DNA of 64,000 bases from Draconibacterium mangrovi (GTDB lineage: Bacteria; Bacteroidota; Bacteroidia; Bacteroidales; Prolixibacteraceae). The stretch is taken from NCBI RefSeq assembly GCF_010586825.1, contig NZ_JAAAGB010000011.1:1-64000 (forward strand). The letters are read 5' to 3'. The notes under the pieces were generated by a model. The model saw only the letters and a program-made list of their open reading frames with translations, made no database searches and was not told the DNA's origin. Of the stretch, positions 6,010 to 57,723 are shown piece after piece. Position 1 is the first letter of the stretch, and every line of letters begins with the position of its first letter. A program made the position numbers and the translations under genes.

Positions 6010-9000
6010 TTAAAATGCTAATTGAACACCAATGTTAAACCTTCGGTTCGGCGGATATCCTAATCCGGCACGTCCCATTTCAGGATCCCATAACTTAAAT
6101 GGACTGACAACAAACAGGTTTACTCCACTACAATAAATTCTTGCATTTTCGAGTCCTATTTTTTCAAAACCCTTAGTTTTGATGTTGTAGCCCATTTCTA
6201 CTGTTTTTAAACGTAGAAAAGCACCGTTTCTTAACCACCATGTTGATGTTTGCGTGTTGTTTGCAAGCGGATCAACAGATAAACGCGGCCAGAAAGCGTG
6301 TACATCAGGATTTGTTTCAGACCAATGGTCTTCAGCAATTAATGAAAGGGCATTTCTTCTTGATGCAAATGGAGCTATACCATGCCGATTGTTCACATTA
6401 TCGCTGGCATCGCTGGCATCAATAAAAAATGAAACTCTGGCATTACCCTGGAAGAAGAAGGACAAATCGAAATTTTTGAATCCTCCTGATGCTCCGAAAC
6501 CATATTGAATCTCAGGAACTGTTGGAAGGCCTAGAGGAACACGGTCGTTCGAGTTTACGATACCATCACCGTTAACATCTTTGTATTTGATATCACCGGC
6601 TTGATAAGTTCCAAAGTCTTGTTTTGGAGAATTGGCGATTTCTGCTTCGTCAACAAATAGTCTTTCGGCAATTAATCCCCACCATTGATTAGTGGAATGG
6701 CCTTTTTGTTTTAGGTATTCATCGGCATATTCTTTTTCGTCCAGCTCAACATATTTGTTTGTTGCGAATGTAATGTTGGCACGGCCGGTTAGCCACCAGT
6801 CTTTGGGTGAAATGTACTGGTAATCCGCAGATGCTTCATATCCCCATGACTCTACTTTACCAACGTTACCACTAATTGCTGCTTCTAAGCCGGCAGAGGC
6901 GGGGAAGTTTTGTCTTTGGAGATAGATTTGGTCGCGAACGTCCTTAAACAGGTCTCCCTGGATTTTTAGTGCATCATCAAGGAAGGTCATTTCAAGTCCA
7001 AGGTTCATCTTTGTTGATACCTCCCAGGTTATGTCCGGGTTGGCATAACGGTTAATATTGTATCCACCGTATTCATTCATAAAAGTTGTTCCCCAACGGT
7101 ATCCATTACCGCCTTTTGAAATGTCAGAGAGATAGAAAAAACGATCCTGACGTCCTGCAATAGCATCGTTACCAACCTTACCCCAGGTAGCTTTAAGTTT
7201 TAGAGAATTAACAATATCTTTCATTGGAGTCCAGAAGTTTTCGTTGGAGATCAACCAACCACCACCAAAAGAGGGGAAGAAACCATATCTTTTTGATCCG
7301 CTAAATTTTTCTGAACCATTGTAACCGTAAGCAAATTCAAAGAAATACCGCGTGTCATAGTCATAGGTTAAACGTCCTGAATTACCCATGTTTCTTTCCG
7401 GTAATGTTTCGTAGATTGAAGTACTGTTACCAGCTGTTAGTAGGTATTCTTCGAACATACCCACGGTCATTACGCCAATGCTGTGGTTTCCAAATTCTCT
7501 ATCCCAGTTCAAGCGTGCTTCATAATAATAATGGGCACTTGCATCTCTACCCGGATCAACATCACCCAGATATACCTGGCCACCTTCCGGATTCAGCTCA
7601 AATAATTTATATTCTCCGGTAATTTGGTTGTAGCTTTCCAGGTCATAAAAGAATGGACTGTAAGTTCTTCGGCTTGAATAATAGCTCCAGGTGTTTACCG
7701 ATGCTTTGGCCTGAAGTTTTAATCCTTCAGTAATAAAATCAAGCTCTTGCGATAGAGTTGCCATTGCAGTGATTGAACTCTCGTTTCTGTCTTCATAACC
7801 TCTAACCATTTCAGCATATGGGTTTTGTTTTAGGCCACCATTTACAAAAGTATTTCCAAAAAGTATATGGTCAGAGAGCAGGTGCGCTTCGTCTGGTTCG
7901 TAAACTGCCGGAAAGTCAACCGGGTTGGAGTTCATTACCATTCTGAATATGTCGCCTGCTGATGAATTTGGTCCGTTGTATCTTTCAAATCTTCCTTGTA
8001 ATCTTGTGTCAAGTCTTGTAGTAGGCGTAATTTTTATAATAACGTTGTTACGCAACTGCACGCGATTAATATCAATATTATTGTTGAAATTGTTTTTAGA
8101 ATCAACTTTTAACAGACCGGTTTCGTTTTCAATTGATCCTGCAACATAATAGGTCGCCACTTTTCCACCACCAGATACATTAAAATTCGCTTTTTTGTTA
8201 ATTGTCGATTTTTCAAAAAGCTCATCGTACCAGTCGATGTTCGGATAGATCATTGGATCAACGCCATCAGCAGTCGATTGTATTTTTTGCTCGCTGTAAT
8301 AGGTACCCAGTAATGGATTGCGCGAAATACGGGCCTCGTTATATAGTTTCATGTATTCTACTCCATCCAGCAGCTCATTCATTTGTGTAGGCGTTGCAAG
8401 ATGTGATTCAAGACGCACATTGATCTTAGCCGGACCTTCACGACCCGATTTTGTTTCAACGATGATAATACCGTTTGCACCCCTTGCTCCGTATAATACG
8501 GTTGCTGACGCATCTTTCAAAATTGAGAAACTTTCGATATTGTCAGGTTCCAATCTCGCAAGGTCATCTGATGAGGCTTCAAATCCATCGATAAGGATCA
8601 AAGGATTTGTTTTGTACCCGAATGTGGTTACCCCACGAACGAAGAACTGCGCATTATCGGCTCCCGGTTCTCCCGAGGTTTGGTACGAAATAATCCCTGG
8701 GATTTTACCGGCCAAAGCAGTTGTTAAGTTCGATGAAGGCTGTTTTAGTTCAGCCGGGCGAACTGTTTCAATTGAAGAGATTACACTTTCTTTTTTCTGC
8801 TTACCAAAAGCCACTACCTGTACTTCTTCCAGTTCGGTTTCGTCATCGTAAAGCGTAATGTTTACAACATTCTGATCTTTGATAACTACTTGCTCCGGTT
8901 TTTTTCCAACAAAAGAAAATTGCAGGGTATCGCTAACCGAAACACGGATGTTATATTCTCCGTTTACGTTGGTTACGGTACCTCTGGATGTTCCCAGAAC

Positions 9001-54036: not shown

Positions 54037-54169
54037 TTTGCACCGTGGCTTTAGCCCGGTGATCAGAATTAAGGACATATAAAAAAGGCTTTAGCCATTA
54101 ATCTTACCGATTAAACGCTAAAGCCTTTTATATTATCACAAATATCACCGCCCTGAAGGACGGTGCAAA
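54037..54169. repeat. Nested palindromic REP-like element
   Basis: TTTGCACCGT (54037-54046) and ACGGTGCAAA (54160-54169) are exact complements, and inside them CGGTGAT (54057-54063) matches ATCACCG (54144-54150). Each arm can also fold on itself: CACCG-tGGC-TTTA-GCCc-GGTG on the left, CACCG-CCCTGAAGGA-CGGTG on the right. Between the arms sits the 13-bp terminator stem. The arrangement of two REP hairpins around a central hairpin resembles a BIME. No REP-associated transposase is in the window. Confidence 0.65.
54083..54129. terminator. Bidirectional terminator between GH78 and pirin genes
   Basis: AAAAGGCTTTAGC (54083-54095) and GCTAAAGCCTTTT (54117-54129) are perfect 13-bp complements. Inside, TTAATC pairs with GATTAA. 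The A/T ends supply a U-run for either strand. It serves both convergent genes. Confidence 0.8.
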
Positions 54170-55223: not shown

Positions 55224-55617
55224 AGTTATGATTTTATTGTTTATGCAAATCAGAGTTTGATCTGGAATATGGACACCTAACGAATGAACAAGGATTTTCC
55301 CGCTTTCTTCCTTCATTATCGAGGTGAAAAAGGGAGAAAATCAGCATTTCACTGTACTATTTTCAAACCTTGATTTGCATTGTTTCTTTTAAATTGCTGT
55401 GGCCCGTTGTTTGAGCCGGCTCAGTACCTAACACAAAAAGCGGGAGAAAATGTTCGGGTTAAGCCTGAAAATAGTGGCGTTTTAACACTATTTAAAAGAG
55501 TTGACTACGAGGGCGTGATTTTATAATATATCGGCTGATAAAGCAATTTGCCTTTTTATCAAATCTAAACTATCTTGTGCTTAACAAAAAGATATTGATT
55601 CACCCAAATCGAAAAAA
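55224..55617. other. Divergent intergenic region, pirin / unrecognised gene
   Basis: About 390 bases, AT-rich. The first part continues the pirin reading frame upstream of its chosen start. No gene, strong hairpin or exact TAnnTTTG box was found. Confidence 0.35.
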
Positions 55618-56328
55618 ATGCCAACAATCAAACAAACAACCCAACCTGACGAAATAAAATCGTCGCGCCCCAACCAACCTGTTGCTTCGTTTTTGCAGGA
55701 GGCCGAAAACCTTTATGTATGGTGTATTGATGATATACCTGAGTTGGTAAAGGCCGGAGTTGATGTGGAACTGATTAACACATTGCCGGAAAATATTAAA
55801 GCCTGTCGTGATGCCCAAACGCTATGGAAAAAGAAACTACAAACTCCGGGCGAAGCACAGGTGCAATGGAAATTACAGCAGCCGGAGGCCAGTAAATTAG
55901 AGGCCGAATTGATACGTGCCTTGCGTTTTGCCTTTCGGAATAATCCCGATTTATTAGTCCGGCTAAAATATATTACAAAAGGTAACAGCTATGCAAATCT
56001 TATTCAGGACCTGAATGATTTGGCGCTACTGGGGCAGAAACACAGTCAATTGCTTACGGCTTTTGGATTTGATATGGACTTGCTCAATACGGCAACGGCA
56101 AAATCGAAAGAGTTGGCCGGTTTGTGGGCACAGACTAAAAACGAAAATGCCCGTTTAAATGAAACGGCAGTTGCGCGTAATAAGGCGTTCTGGACCTTGC
56201 ATCAACAAGTATCGGAAATCCGCGCGGCCGGCCAGTATGTCTTCCGCCACCGAAAAGACCGCTATGTGGGTTATGTTAGCCAATTCTGGAAGCAAAAGGA
56301 TCAACGCAAAAGCAATTCTGCTGGCTAA
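55618..56328 (+). CDS. Unrecognised helical protein next to the 21-bp array
   Basis: A 236-residue soluble protein without signal peptide or membrane segment. I do not recognise the family and see no catalytic motif. The sequence is predicted mostly alpha-helical, with segments such as V-A-S-F-L-Q-E-A-E-N-L-Y-V-W-C (23-37), K-L-E-A-E-L-I-R-A-L-R-F-A-F-R-N-N-P-D-L (92-111), and a tail rich in Arg/Lys (R-A-A-G-Q-Y-V-F-R-H-R-K-D-R-Y-V-G-Y near 203-220). That tail could bind nucleic acid. The array of TGCGAGG sites begins 28 nt after its stop codon, so the two may form one unit. The coding frame looks real (protein-like composition, no internal oddities). Confidence 0.7.
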   Translation: MPTIKQTTQPDEIKSSRPNQPVASFLQEAENLYVWCIDDIPELVKAGVDVELINTLPENIKACRDAQTLWKKKLQTPGEAQVQWKLQQPEASKLEAELIRALRFAFRNNPDLLVRLKYITKGNSYANLIQDLNDLALLGQKHSQLLTAFGFDMDLLNTATAKSKELAGLWAQTKNENARLNETAVARNKAFWTLHQQVSEIRAAGQYVFRHRKDRYVGYVSQFWKQKDQRKSNSAG

Positions 56329-56355
56329 ACCCAGTCATTGTATTAAATATTATAA

Positions 56356-56582
56356 TGCGAGGTACTCGTAATAGAGTGCGAGGGATATTTATATGCATGC
56401 GAGGGATAAATAATAAGGTGCGAGGAATAAATAAACAGATGCGAGGGACAAAAAAAGGGATGCGAGGTTACCTCGCACGTGTATATAATTACCTCGTAGG
56501 TAAATATTAGTCCCTCGCACCTAAATAAAACTACCTCGCATTATTATATTAGTCCCTCGCGTGATGTTATTAGTCCCTCGCA
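56356..56582. repeat. Mirror-symmetric array of twelve TGCGAGG sites at 21-bp period
   Basis: TGCGAGG starts at 56356, 56377, 56398, 56419, 56440 and 56461. Its complement CCTCGCA starts at 56471, 56492 (CCTCGTA), 56513, 56534, 56555 (CCTCGCG) and 56576. All intervals are exactly 21 bp, and the whole is symmetric about base 56469. The sites are separated by about 13-14 variable bases, mostly A/T; several copies extend to GGGACTAATA. One frame on the plus strand (56355-56510) reads as a 51-residue peptide with heptads of M/V-R-G. After the array, to 56720, lies a GC-rich tail with a small hairpin (CGCGAA/TTCGCG, 56642-56657). It is not a CRISPR: the repeats are 7-8 bp and the spacers are too short. 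Confidence 0.95.
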
Positions 56583-56720
56583 GAGCAAAATTGTCTGCAG
56601 GGACGGGTGAAAATGCAAAAAACAGAAGTAACATTATACCACGCGAAGGGATTCGCGCGATAGCGGTGATTCGGGCGGTAGCGGAGGCCCGGGAGACTTC
56701 AATGGGGGACGTTTTATTTC

Positions 56721-57590
56721 CTACTGGCCGTTTACAAGGTGTAGTTGGTTGGTAACTTCCTGGTAAAAGGTTTTTACTTTCTGTTTGTAATCTCCTTCTC
56801 CCAGTGTTTCGATAGGAACGTATCCGCGATATGACGATGCTTTAATGATATGCATAATCCGCTCAAGGTCGGTTTTTACCGGTTCGCCGTTAACATACAC
56901 CATTTCTTTTAACTGCCAGTTTACGGCGTAGGGTATGCTTGCTTCAATCTGTTGGTAGGGGTCGCCCAAACGATAACTTCCCACATCAAGAACCAGCCCA
57001 AACCATTCGGAATGAATCTCTTCAAATAGTTGTAGAACATGATCTGATGTTTTAATAAACTGCCAATGGTTTTGGATGGCAACGATTACTCCATGCTCGG
57101 CACCAAACTCAACGCACTCGCGGATGGCAGCAATCATCGAATTAAAAATCTCCTGGTTTTCGAACTGCCCCGGATTTGACTGTCCGGCGAAAATGCGCAG
57201 AACCGGTGCGCCCAGTTTTTCGGCAGCAATTATCCAGTTTTTCACCAGTTGAATGTTTTCTTCCAGTGCCTTCGGGTCGCCACTGGTAAAATCGTTACGA
57301 ACTCCGGTACCACTTATCTCCAGACCCAGTTCATGGGCTTTTCGTTTAACGCTGTAAAGCACCTCGTTGGAGGGAACGGCAGGGTAGCCGGGGAAATAGT
57401 AGGCGGTTAAATCCACCGCATCGAATCCGGTTTCAGCACAAAATTCCAGCAGCTCGTCAAGGTTCATTTGCCCTTCCGAAAGAAGGTGATTAAAGGAGTA
57501 GGCATTTAAACTGGTTTTTAATTTTGGCGACTGGGCAAAAAGTAAGGAGGATAAACCAAGGCAGAAAATGACAAGTGCTAGATGTTTCAT
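56721..57590 (-). CDS. Sugar phosphate isomerase/epimerase-like TIM-barrel protein, secreted
   Basis: The open frame extends to 57641, but M-K-H-L-A-L-V-I-F at 57590 starts a clear signal peptide (to L-L-F-A-Q), giving 289 residues. Xylose isomerase-like TIM barrel: E-F-C-A-E-T-G-F-D-A-V-D-L-T (near 50), G-L-E-I-S-G-T-G-V-R-N-D-F (near 86), I-V-A-I-Q-N-H-W (near 172), L-V-L-D-V-G-S-Y (near 200), and Y-V-P-I-E-T-L-G-E-G (near 250) with possible metal ligands N/H, D and E. Exported members of this family are common in Bacteroidota and usually have no known substrate. Convergent with the unrecognised gene across the 21-bp array. Confidence 0.85.
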   Translation of the reverse strand: MKHLALVIFCLGLSSLLFAQSPKLKTSLNAYSFNHLLSEGQMNLDELLEFCAETGFDAVDLTAYYFPGYPAVPSNEVLYSVKRKAHELGLEISGTGVRNDFTSGDPKALEENIQLVKNWIIAAEKLGAPVLRIFAGQSNPGQFENQEIFNSMIAAIRECVEFGAEHGVIVAIQNHWQFIKTSDHVLQLFEEIHSEWFGLVLDVGSYRLGDPYQQIEASIPYAVNWQLKEMVYVNGEPVKTDLERIMHIIKASSYRGYVPIETLGEGDYKQKVKTFYQEVTNQLHLVNGQ

Positions 57591-57723
57591 AATTGTAGGT
57601 TTTAGGCCACGATAAGATAGAAATATTTTACCGGATCGCAATTCGGAATGGAATAGCGTTCTTTACCTTCACAAACAAGAAACGACAGCACCCTGCACAA
57701 ATTCCGCAACAAAAATAAAACGT

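Follow-up and report, generated by a model that had tools for sequence, protein, structure and literature searches.

A phased DNA array beside an uncharacterised gene, with site cores that change together with the C-terminal tail of the encoded protein

Twelve short sites, repeated every 21 bp and mirrored about a single base, lie just 3' of a gene for a 236-residue protein in the window (the whole 64-kb stretch of Draconibacterium mangrovi DNA analysed here), and comparison of related loci suggests that this array is probably a set of phased DNA binding sites, read by the C-terminal tail of the upstream protein such that the bound copies would assemble on one face of the helix. Sequence comparison across loci demonstrates the constant phasing of such arrays, their linkage to the family of the window protein (the window family) and to a second family, DUF6261, and the covariation of the protein tail with the site core. 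The adjacent gene and the covariation both go beyond what an earlier reading of the same DNA, made from the letters alone (the sequence-only reading), had noticed. Coordinates are collected in Table 1.

Table 1. Positions in the window of the array, the adjacent gene and their surroundings.
Feature	Position	Strand	Basis
Mirror-symmetric 21-bp array, twelve cores	56356..56582	.	seen directly in sequence
Forward half; cores start at 56356, 56377, 56398, 56419, 56440, 56461	56356..56467	+	
Reverse half; cores start at 56471, 56492 (TACGAGG), 56513, 56534, 56555 (CGCGAGG), 56576	56471..56582	-	
Central palindrome TGCGAGGTTACCTCGCA, the two innermost cores; an adjoining T run gives a terminator-like score on the minus strand	56461..56477		
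236-aa gene, proposed array reader	55618..56328	+	homologs in 22/61 genomes searched
Codons for the basic tail at the C-terminus (residues 220-236), the proposed recognition segment	56275..56325	+	segment identity contrast
Codon of Asp228 (W+4), proposed to set the base after GCGAG	56299..56301	+	residue-base association
Convergent neighbour, xylose-isomerase-like TIM barrel (PF01261), not thought part of the system	56721..57641	-	

All steps of the array are exactly 21 bp and its mirror centre is base 56469, such that the core positions bear out the six forward and six reverse sites of the sequence-only reading. Its count of twelve TGCGAGG sites stands if one mismatch is allowed and fails in the strict sense, since only 10 of the 12 cores are exact and two reverse cores (56555 and 56492) carry one change each. 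The exact heptamer, which is non-palindromic, occurs 12 times in the window, ten of them inside the array, as against a mean of 3.9 and a maximum of 10 in 100 shuffles. Close orthologs keep the array in 8/8 cases, with its start 27 nt past the stop codon in four loci and 28 nt past it in the other four, and keep GCGAG at 83 of 92 sites, in line with the conserved cores and freer linkers described earlier. The linkers vary, with a TAATA-like AT pattern common to four of the eight ortholog arrays, those of the Asp type (see below), in which the linker consensus is also partly different between forward and reverse halves. The further proposal that 21 bp is a fixed helical spacing, placing a cooperative binder on one DNA face, gains support as a likely reading from the retention of the array in all eight orthologs. 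No Rfam family matched the 64-kb window at the gathering threshold. Elsewhere in the window (54082-54130), a hairpin-like AAAGGCTTTAGCC repeat lies between a 947-aa gene and the next minus-strand gene and by eye resembles a terminator or a dispersed repeat.

The array starts 27 nt past the stop codon of the 236-aa gene, homologs of which were found only within the same genus, with at most nine matches per genome, in a search set made up of the window's own genome, 36 of the genus and 24 of the order. Two paralogs in the own genome (41% and 43% identity) likewise have downstream arrays, one with the core CCTGTT/AACAGG (L009) and the other with GGAAAG in one direction (L010). In Pfam the 236-aa protein matched no family above cut-off, the one weak hit being Lipocalin_8 at E 0.13, and it scored 35.3 bits against the NCBIfam 'PQLLE family' (NF052641), below the curated cut-off of 80; profile comparison points to remote kinship between the window family and the PQLLE-like group (probability 75%, E 2.5e-5). 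No DNA-binding domain rose over cut-off in the window protein or the relatives scanned, the best being HTH_MCM7 in L161 at 19.5 of 26.5 bits, and no toxin family matched the proteins scanned. PADLOC anti-phage profiles gave no hit for the window protein and two DUF6261 proteins, and weak matches for L157 (E 0.006) and L166 (E 0.008) to models named RecX family and Cas7d. A search of viral contigs found no relatives, a plasmid search with one DUF6261 protein found no match, and PHROGs and PDB sequence searches returned weak matches only. A search of open-access papers found none on the 'PQLLE family', and DUF6261 surfaced there only in work on daptomycin resistance.

Gene-plus-array pairs proved widespread. 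Loci around family genes were scored for self-match in windows of 105 bp, with all shifts between 12 and 60 tried, and an array anywhere in the locus was called present when the best shift among 20-22 or 40-43 reached at least 0.50 and lay above all others (19, 23, 39 and 44 set aside). This test was passed by 50/58 window-family, 69/80 DUF6261 and 22/26 PQLLE-like loci versus 12/200 control tiles of 3.6 kb (Fisher p = 3e-33, 9e-41 and 3e-18, respectively), an enrichment at family genes of about 14-fold; homologous gene-linked loci with random spacing or no array, which the sequence-only reading had said would speak against it, are thus not the pattern found. The tiles came from 40 arbitrarily placed 20-kb stretches, 20 from the own genome and 20 spread over 16 other genomes that carry family genes, and exclude the order-level DUF6261 genomes. 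Two profiles run against 296 genomes of the phylum gave the PQLLE-like loci, 26 being left after removal of duplicate and window-family genes, and DUF6261 was picked for a similar appearance, not via a database match. Homology between the window family and DUF6261 (PF19775) is not supported (hhalign probability 0.5%), and the feature that the two have in common is the linked array. In 52/57 window-family loci an array (chain score of at least 3) is found no more than 330 nt downstream of the gene, as against 1/57 on the 5' side, and DUF6261 arrays end upstream of the start codon, or no more than 40 nt from it, in 56 of the 57 measured. In one Dysgonamonadaceae locus (L046:81-421 and 6482-6772), two 21-bp arrays each lie near a gene that starts MK(Q/K)ILLTM and has a signal-peptide-like start, so that 21-bp arrays might also accompany further gene families.

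The periods called were mostly 21, 41 and 42, with 22 allowed and never called, and 21 was also the commonest strong period in the control tiles (6/32); among DUF6261 arrays the top period was 40-43 in 60/68 loci. Across arrays, sites are spaced 20-21 bp apart, or 40-43 bp where the unit has two different halves. Orientation is free, such that the CCTG group is mirrored like the window with 20/21 steps, several loci run in one direction only and some DUF6261 units alternate inverted cores. Constant phase together with free orientation agrees better with proteins on a single face of B-DNA than with an RNA fold.

The array might instead act as RNA, transcribed with or near the gene as a long GC-clamped hairpin that the basic tail binds, serving autoregulation or RNA stability, a possibility that we regard as unlikely. 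Arginine-rich peptides bind RNA hairpins, the tails are basic, the array abuts the gene, and the long RNA hairpin of the sequence-only reading is indeed possible as a predicted fold (-111 kcal/mol, z -8.6). As an essential feature the hairpin is not supported by comparison, since homologous arrays occur in single or alternating orientation and mirrored pairing in the eight orthologs is no better than unmirrored (cores 0.884 vs 0.894, linkers 0.423 vs 0.429). Mirrored partners in these orthologs do show a slight excess of G-U over A-C, with 17 against 10 among cores and 41 against 33 among linkers, whereas inverted pairs of DUF6261 arrays, counted in the 47 of 68 loci whose self-match was 0.58 or higher and whose stem was 5 or longer, have about equal numbers of the two (126 G-U vs 135 A-C mismatches). 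An RNA role also sits poorly with the 14-pair terminator-like hairpin and T run between gene and array in locus L315 of group III, another paralog group (other members by eye), with the three of 20 unlinked arrays whose flanking genes are divergent as judged by a rough ORF rule, and with a period of 21 or 20.5, never 22.

The reading as DNA sites recognised by the protein tail draws on the joint change of tail and core. Nine segments of the window-family proteins were compared across the 38 of 57 loci with a strict 7-mer chain, which revealed that in the tail (the segment after a conserved Gly-Tyr) identity is 0.80 between proteins with the same core versus 0.41 between those with different cores (22 and 77 pairs, counts that ignore phylogeny), whereas the other eight segments differ by 0.08 or less. 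The contrast is unchanged without the tail-less proteins (22 and 75 pairs). Protein bodies can be 92-96% identical and yet tails and cores differ (L313/L315, L141/L155 and L008/L129, for example), and by such comparison most sites of an array have changed between closely related proteins.

The residue at one tail position, four past a conserved Trp (W+4, picked after the data had been seen), goes with the base at the core edge. In CCTG arrays, where some of the 14 loci are near relatives, W+4 Asn occurs with T in 7/7 loci (L009, L136, L141, L142, L145, L151, L306) and W+4 His with C in 7/7 (L137, L139, L152, L153, L155, L305, L329). The Asn-type loci have T at 9/9 to 13/13 in-register sites, three loci having one exception each, and the worst of the His-type loci fits at 9/12 sites; W+4 Lys goes with mixed bases (4 loci) and W+4 Ser with T at 3/4 sites. 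Among GCGAG arrays, Asp is found with a following G at 45/47 sites (4 orthologs) and Asn with C or T at 45/45 (the other 4). Read on the opposite strand, the pairings become Asn-A or Asn-purine, His-G and Asp-C, which resemble commonly cited residue-base contact preferences. A tree built from protein bodies only, covering 18 loci (L307 and L330 left out), has 6 changes of the base and 7 of the residue.

Linkers bear on how the switches came about. Forward-half linkers of Asn-type and His-type CCTG arrays agree at 0.76 in register versus 0.33-0.58 out of register, and the cores therefore changed while the array stayed; reverse-half linkers agree best one unit out of register (0.70 at +1, 0.50 at 0). 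In-place core switching was rejected for group III, where linkers are non-homologous between core types, and whole-array replacement is therefore likelier there. Most of the group III loci (L146, L147, L309, L311, L313, L314, L315, L318) keep a TGCGGA-like core in the last two or three units and carry the new core in the units nearer the gene, making a gradient along the array. Joint replacement of a neighbouring array together with the tail could account for part of the covariation. A single clade of 11 of the 57 family proteins (L149, L319-L328) is tail-less, with two residues after Gly-Tyr, and 7 of these 11 still have downstream chains (score of at least 4.5); the reader in tail-less proteins must work differently, and confidence in the DNA-site reading as a whole is slightly lower because of them. 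For DUF6261, site specificity in the N-terminus was entertained and left as suggestive only, the first 12 residues having identities of 0.87 vs 0.54 between proteins with similar and different arrays and the middle segment showing a contrast too (0.85 vs 0.67; 14 and 16 of 41 pairs).

Not all arrays adjoin a family gene. A search for phased GCGAG triples at 21-bp spacing, of the kind that the sequence-only reading had put forward, found them in 11/37 genus genomes, at 1-3 places per genome, and the reversed control pattern in 0/37; unlinked GCGAG arrays are present in 7/8 genomes with a close ortholog versus 3/29 without (p = 9e-5, kinship ignored). Reading 400 kb of the own genome revealed four arrays away from family genes. 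The own genome's second array lies between a DUF4924 gene and a DCC1-like gene, and a third between genes that by eye look ParE-like and MutS-like. Unlinked arrays do not cleanly coevolve with the resident tail, and that idea was dropped, as the edge base fails to track tail type: the DUF4924-DCC array of Asp-type genomes has G at 3/12, 1/12, 1/12 and 0/8 sites, and another unlinked array is G-rich in Asp-type G006 (11/12), G030 (9/10) and G024 (6/8), has only 2/9 in G000, and has G at 6/6 sites in Asn-type G012. CCTGT/CCTGC arrays occur in at least two genomes without a match to the window protein, G004 and G005, the former with several mirrored CCTGT arrays (e.g. L432-L438). No family gene was found around 20 unlinked arrays in regions of 6.6-8 kb. 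Such orphan arrays are the main result against a simple one-reader model; either other readers exist, or the sites of lost paralogs are still constrained. In two Bacillaceae loci, L030:1619-2062 (Oceanobacillus) and L056:120-893 (Virgibacillus), long 21-bp tandem arrays with GCGAGG-like units were seen, and no family gene was detected in the surrounding loci.

The scatter of unlinked arrays would also suit mobile or selfish repeats, MITE-like or REP-like, whose spread was helped by the linked protein and for which regulation or structure would be secondary; we judge this improbable. In its favour, the DUF4924-DCC interval exists with and without the array, which across 30 genomes is present in 7 (six intact, one shorter), decayed or shrunken in 2 and absent in 21, where 23 of the loci were read fully and the other 7 were checked for GCGAG clusters only, none being found. 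Mobility accords less well with the small number of places per genome, and some unlinked arrays are found at one shared site across several species, where the cores are preserved and the linkers differ. In four genomes (L441, L445, L448, L450) an unlinked CCTGC array is flanked by the same pair of genes, one of 613 aa and one of 740-748 aa. No transposase, including Y1 (HuH), matched the window protein or the relatives scanned.

Phased repeats that adjoin the gene of a probable cognate protein are also what an iteron-type replication or incompatibility locus, of plasmid origin or a relic, would look like, and we hold this to be very unlikely here. No replication-initiator family was matched in Pfam by the window protein, nor did one appear among the weak matches of 11 relatives. 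The nearest DnaA-box-like site is 6.98 kb off, with 4 TTATNCACA sites in 64 kb vs 3.1 expected, two of the orthologs (G006, G012) sit on contigs of more than 5 Mb, and there are several paralogs per genome.

It is more doubtful still that the array is a bidirectional or minus-strand terminator between two convergent genes. A simple scan did find 5 terminator-like sites in 55400-56800 vs 1.8 expected, with terminator-like stems at the stop codon of the 236-aa gene and at the array centre (minus strand, 8 pairs, 56478-56460), where a T run follows the central palindrome, and a side role of the array in termination is possible. A terminator, however, needs neither twelve exactly stepped sites nor covariation with a protein tail, and convergent termination as a general role, suspected from early loci, was rejected on gene orientation, the rough longest-ORF rule placing 14 of the 20 unlinked arrays between tandem, 3 between divergent and only 3 between convergent genes. 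Ordinary minisatellites or short coding repeats, with an incidental period and gene link, are scarcely credible: period-21 and period-42 arrays do occur away from family genes (the 12/200 tiles), and 21 bp is seven codons, with an open frame of 51 codons over the forward half (56355-56510, plus strand) encoding a seven-residue repeat that starts Arg-Gly, such that stops alone were insufficient to exclude coding, but the enrichment at genes, the conserved cores with variable linkers and the covariation with one protein segment all stand against this, and the 20/21-bp steps of the CCTG group break any frame.

Taking the array as protein-read DNA sites, the upstream protein would bind each core via its short basic C-terminal tail, with Asp228 at W+4 contacting the base at the core edge, and the two-turn spacing would put many protein copies on one DNA face with neighbours touching. 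The array would in this way load a patch of protein beside the gene, and as for the outcome, one guess is a nucleoprotein body, iteron-like or centromere-like, by which DNA would be bridged or marked; we infer direct binding, side-by-side assembly and the cellular outcome from the comparisons above. The different site sequences of paralogs presumably avoid cross-talk, and arrays distant from family genes may be additional sites or else relics. More tentatively, and as an idea we would not yet favour, genomes may contain several mutually orthogonal DNA-address systems, each made up of a small protein and an array of its own sites at two-turn spacing. In the window family, the part of the gene nearest the array would encode the reading segment, so that reader and sites could pass on or be exchanged together as a cassette. 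Proteins loaded on both their own and distant arrays would bridge or mark particular places on the chromosome, and recognition would obey a simple residue-to-base rule, open to prediction from sequence and to reprogramming.

The window/PQLLE-like group and Pfam DUF6261, both uncharacterised, gain a common testable feature in the DNA array beside the gene, and the natural joint switches of site and tail are a ready-made variant set for studies of protein-DNA recognition. If binding and bridging hold true, the system would be a novel type of chromosomal organiser, or of selfish address system, in these bacteria, possibly usable as a source of orthogonal DNA-binding parts.

Several known systems share parts of this organisation. 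The BrickBuilt MITE of Porphyromonas gingivalis, with intergenic tandem 23-nt units without spacers and with a leader and a tail (PMC4596501), resembles the window array as an intergenic tandem repeat of similar unit length in a member of the Bacteroidota; the window array, in contrast, has period 21 and variable linkers, and the BrickBuilt abstract names no cognate protein. TAACTGA direct repeats form intergenic heptamer arrays, found also in five Bacteroidetes and, in the main species, usually located right before start codons (PMC4679880). Unlike the present arrays, they have one fixed heptamer, and their abstract names no linked protein family. In type III toxin-antitoxin loci a modest-sized gene is immediately preceded by tandem repeats, much as in DUF6261 loci; they differ in that no toxin match was found here, window-family arrays lie downstream and DUF6261 arrays have no RNA-pairing signature. 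REP, BIME and REPIN elements with their RAYT (TnpA-REP) likewise combine a protein gene, cognate repeats and copies elsewhere, and BIMEs alternate in orientation (PMC2817692, PMC8266576, PMC3116915), a likeness in organisation only, since here there is no Y1 transposase match, cores are non-palindromic, arrays per genome are few and the 21-bp phase is strict.

The closest working analogue would be the iterons of plasmids and chromids, for which a bridging model exists. In P1 incA and F incC, the iterons lie 3' of the rep gene. Our system departs from these in having no initiator match, no DnaA-box cluster and chromosome-size contigs for two orthologs, as well as paralogs with different cores, mirrored arrays and cores that switch with the C-terminal tail. 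Iterons are short repeats near the gene of their binder, with regulatory and replicative sets of sites and with bridging ('handcuffing') as a means of control (PMC6090056), and the window array is alike in lying in helical phase beside the gene of its putative binder.
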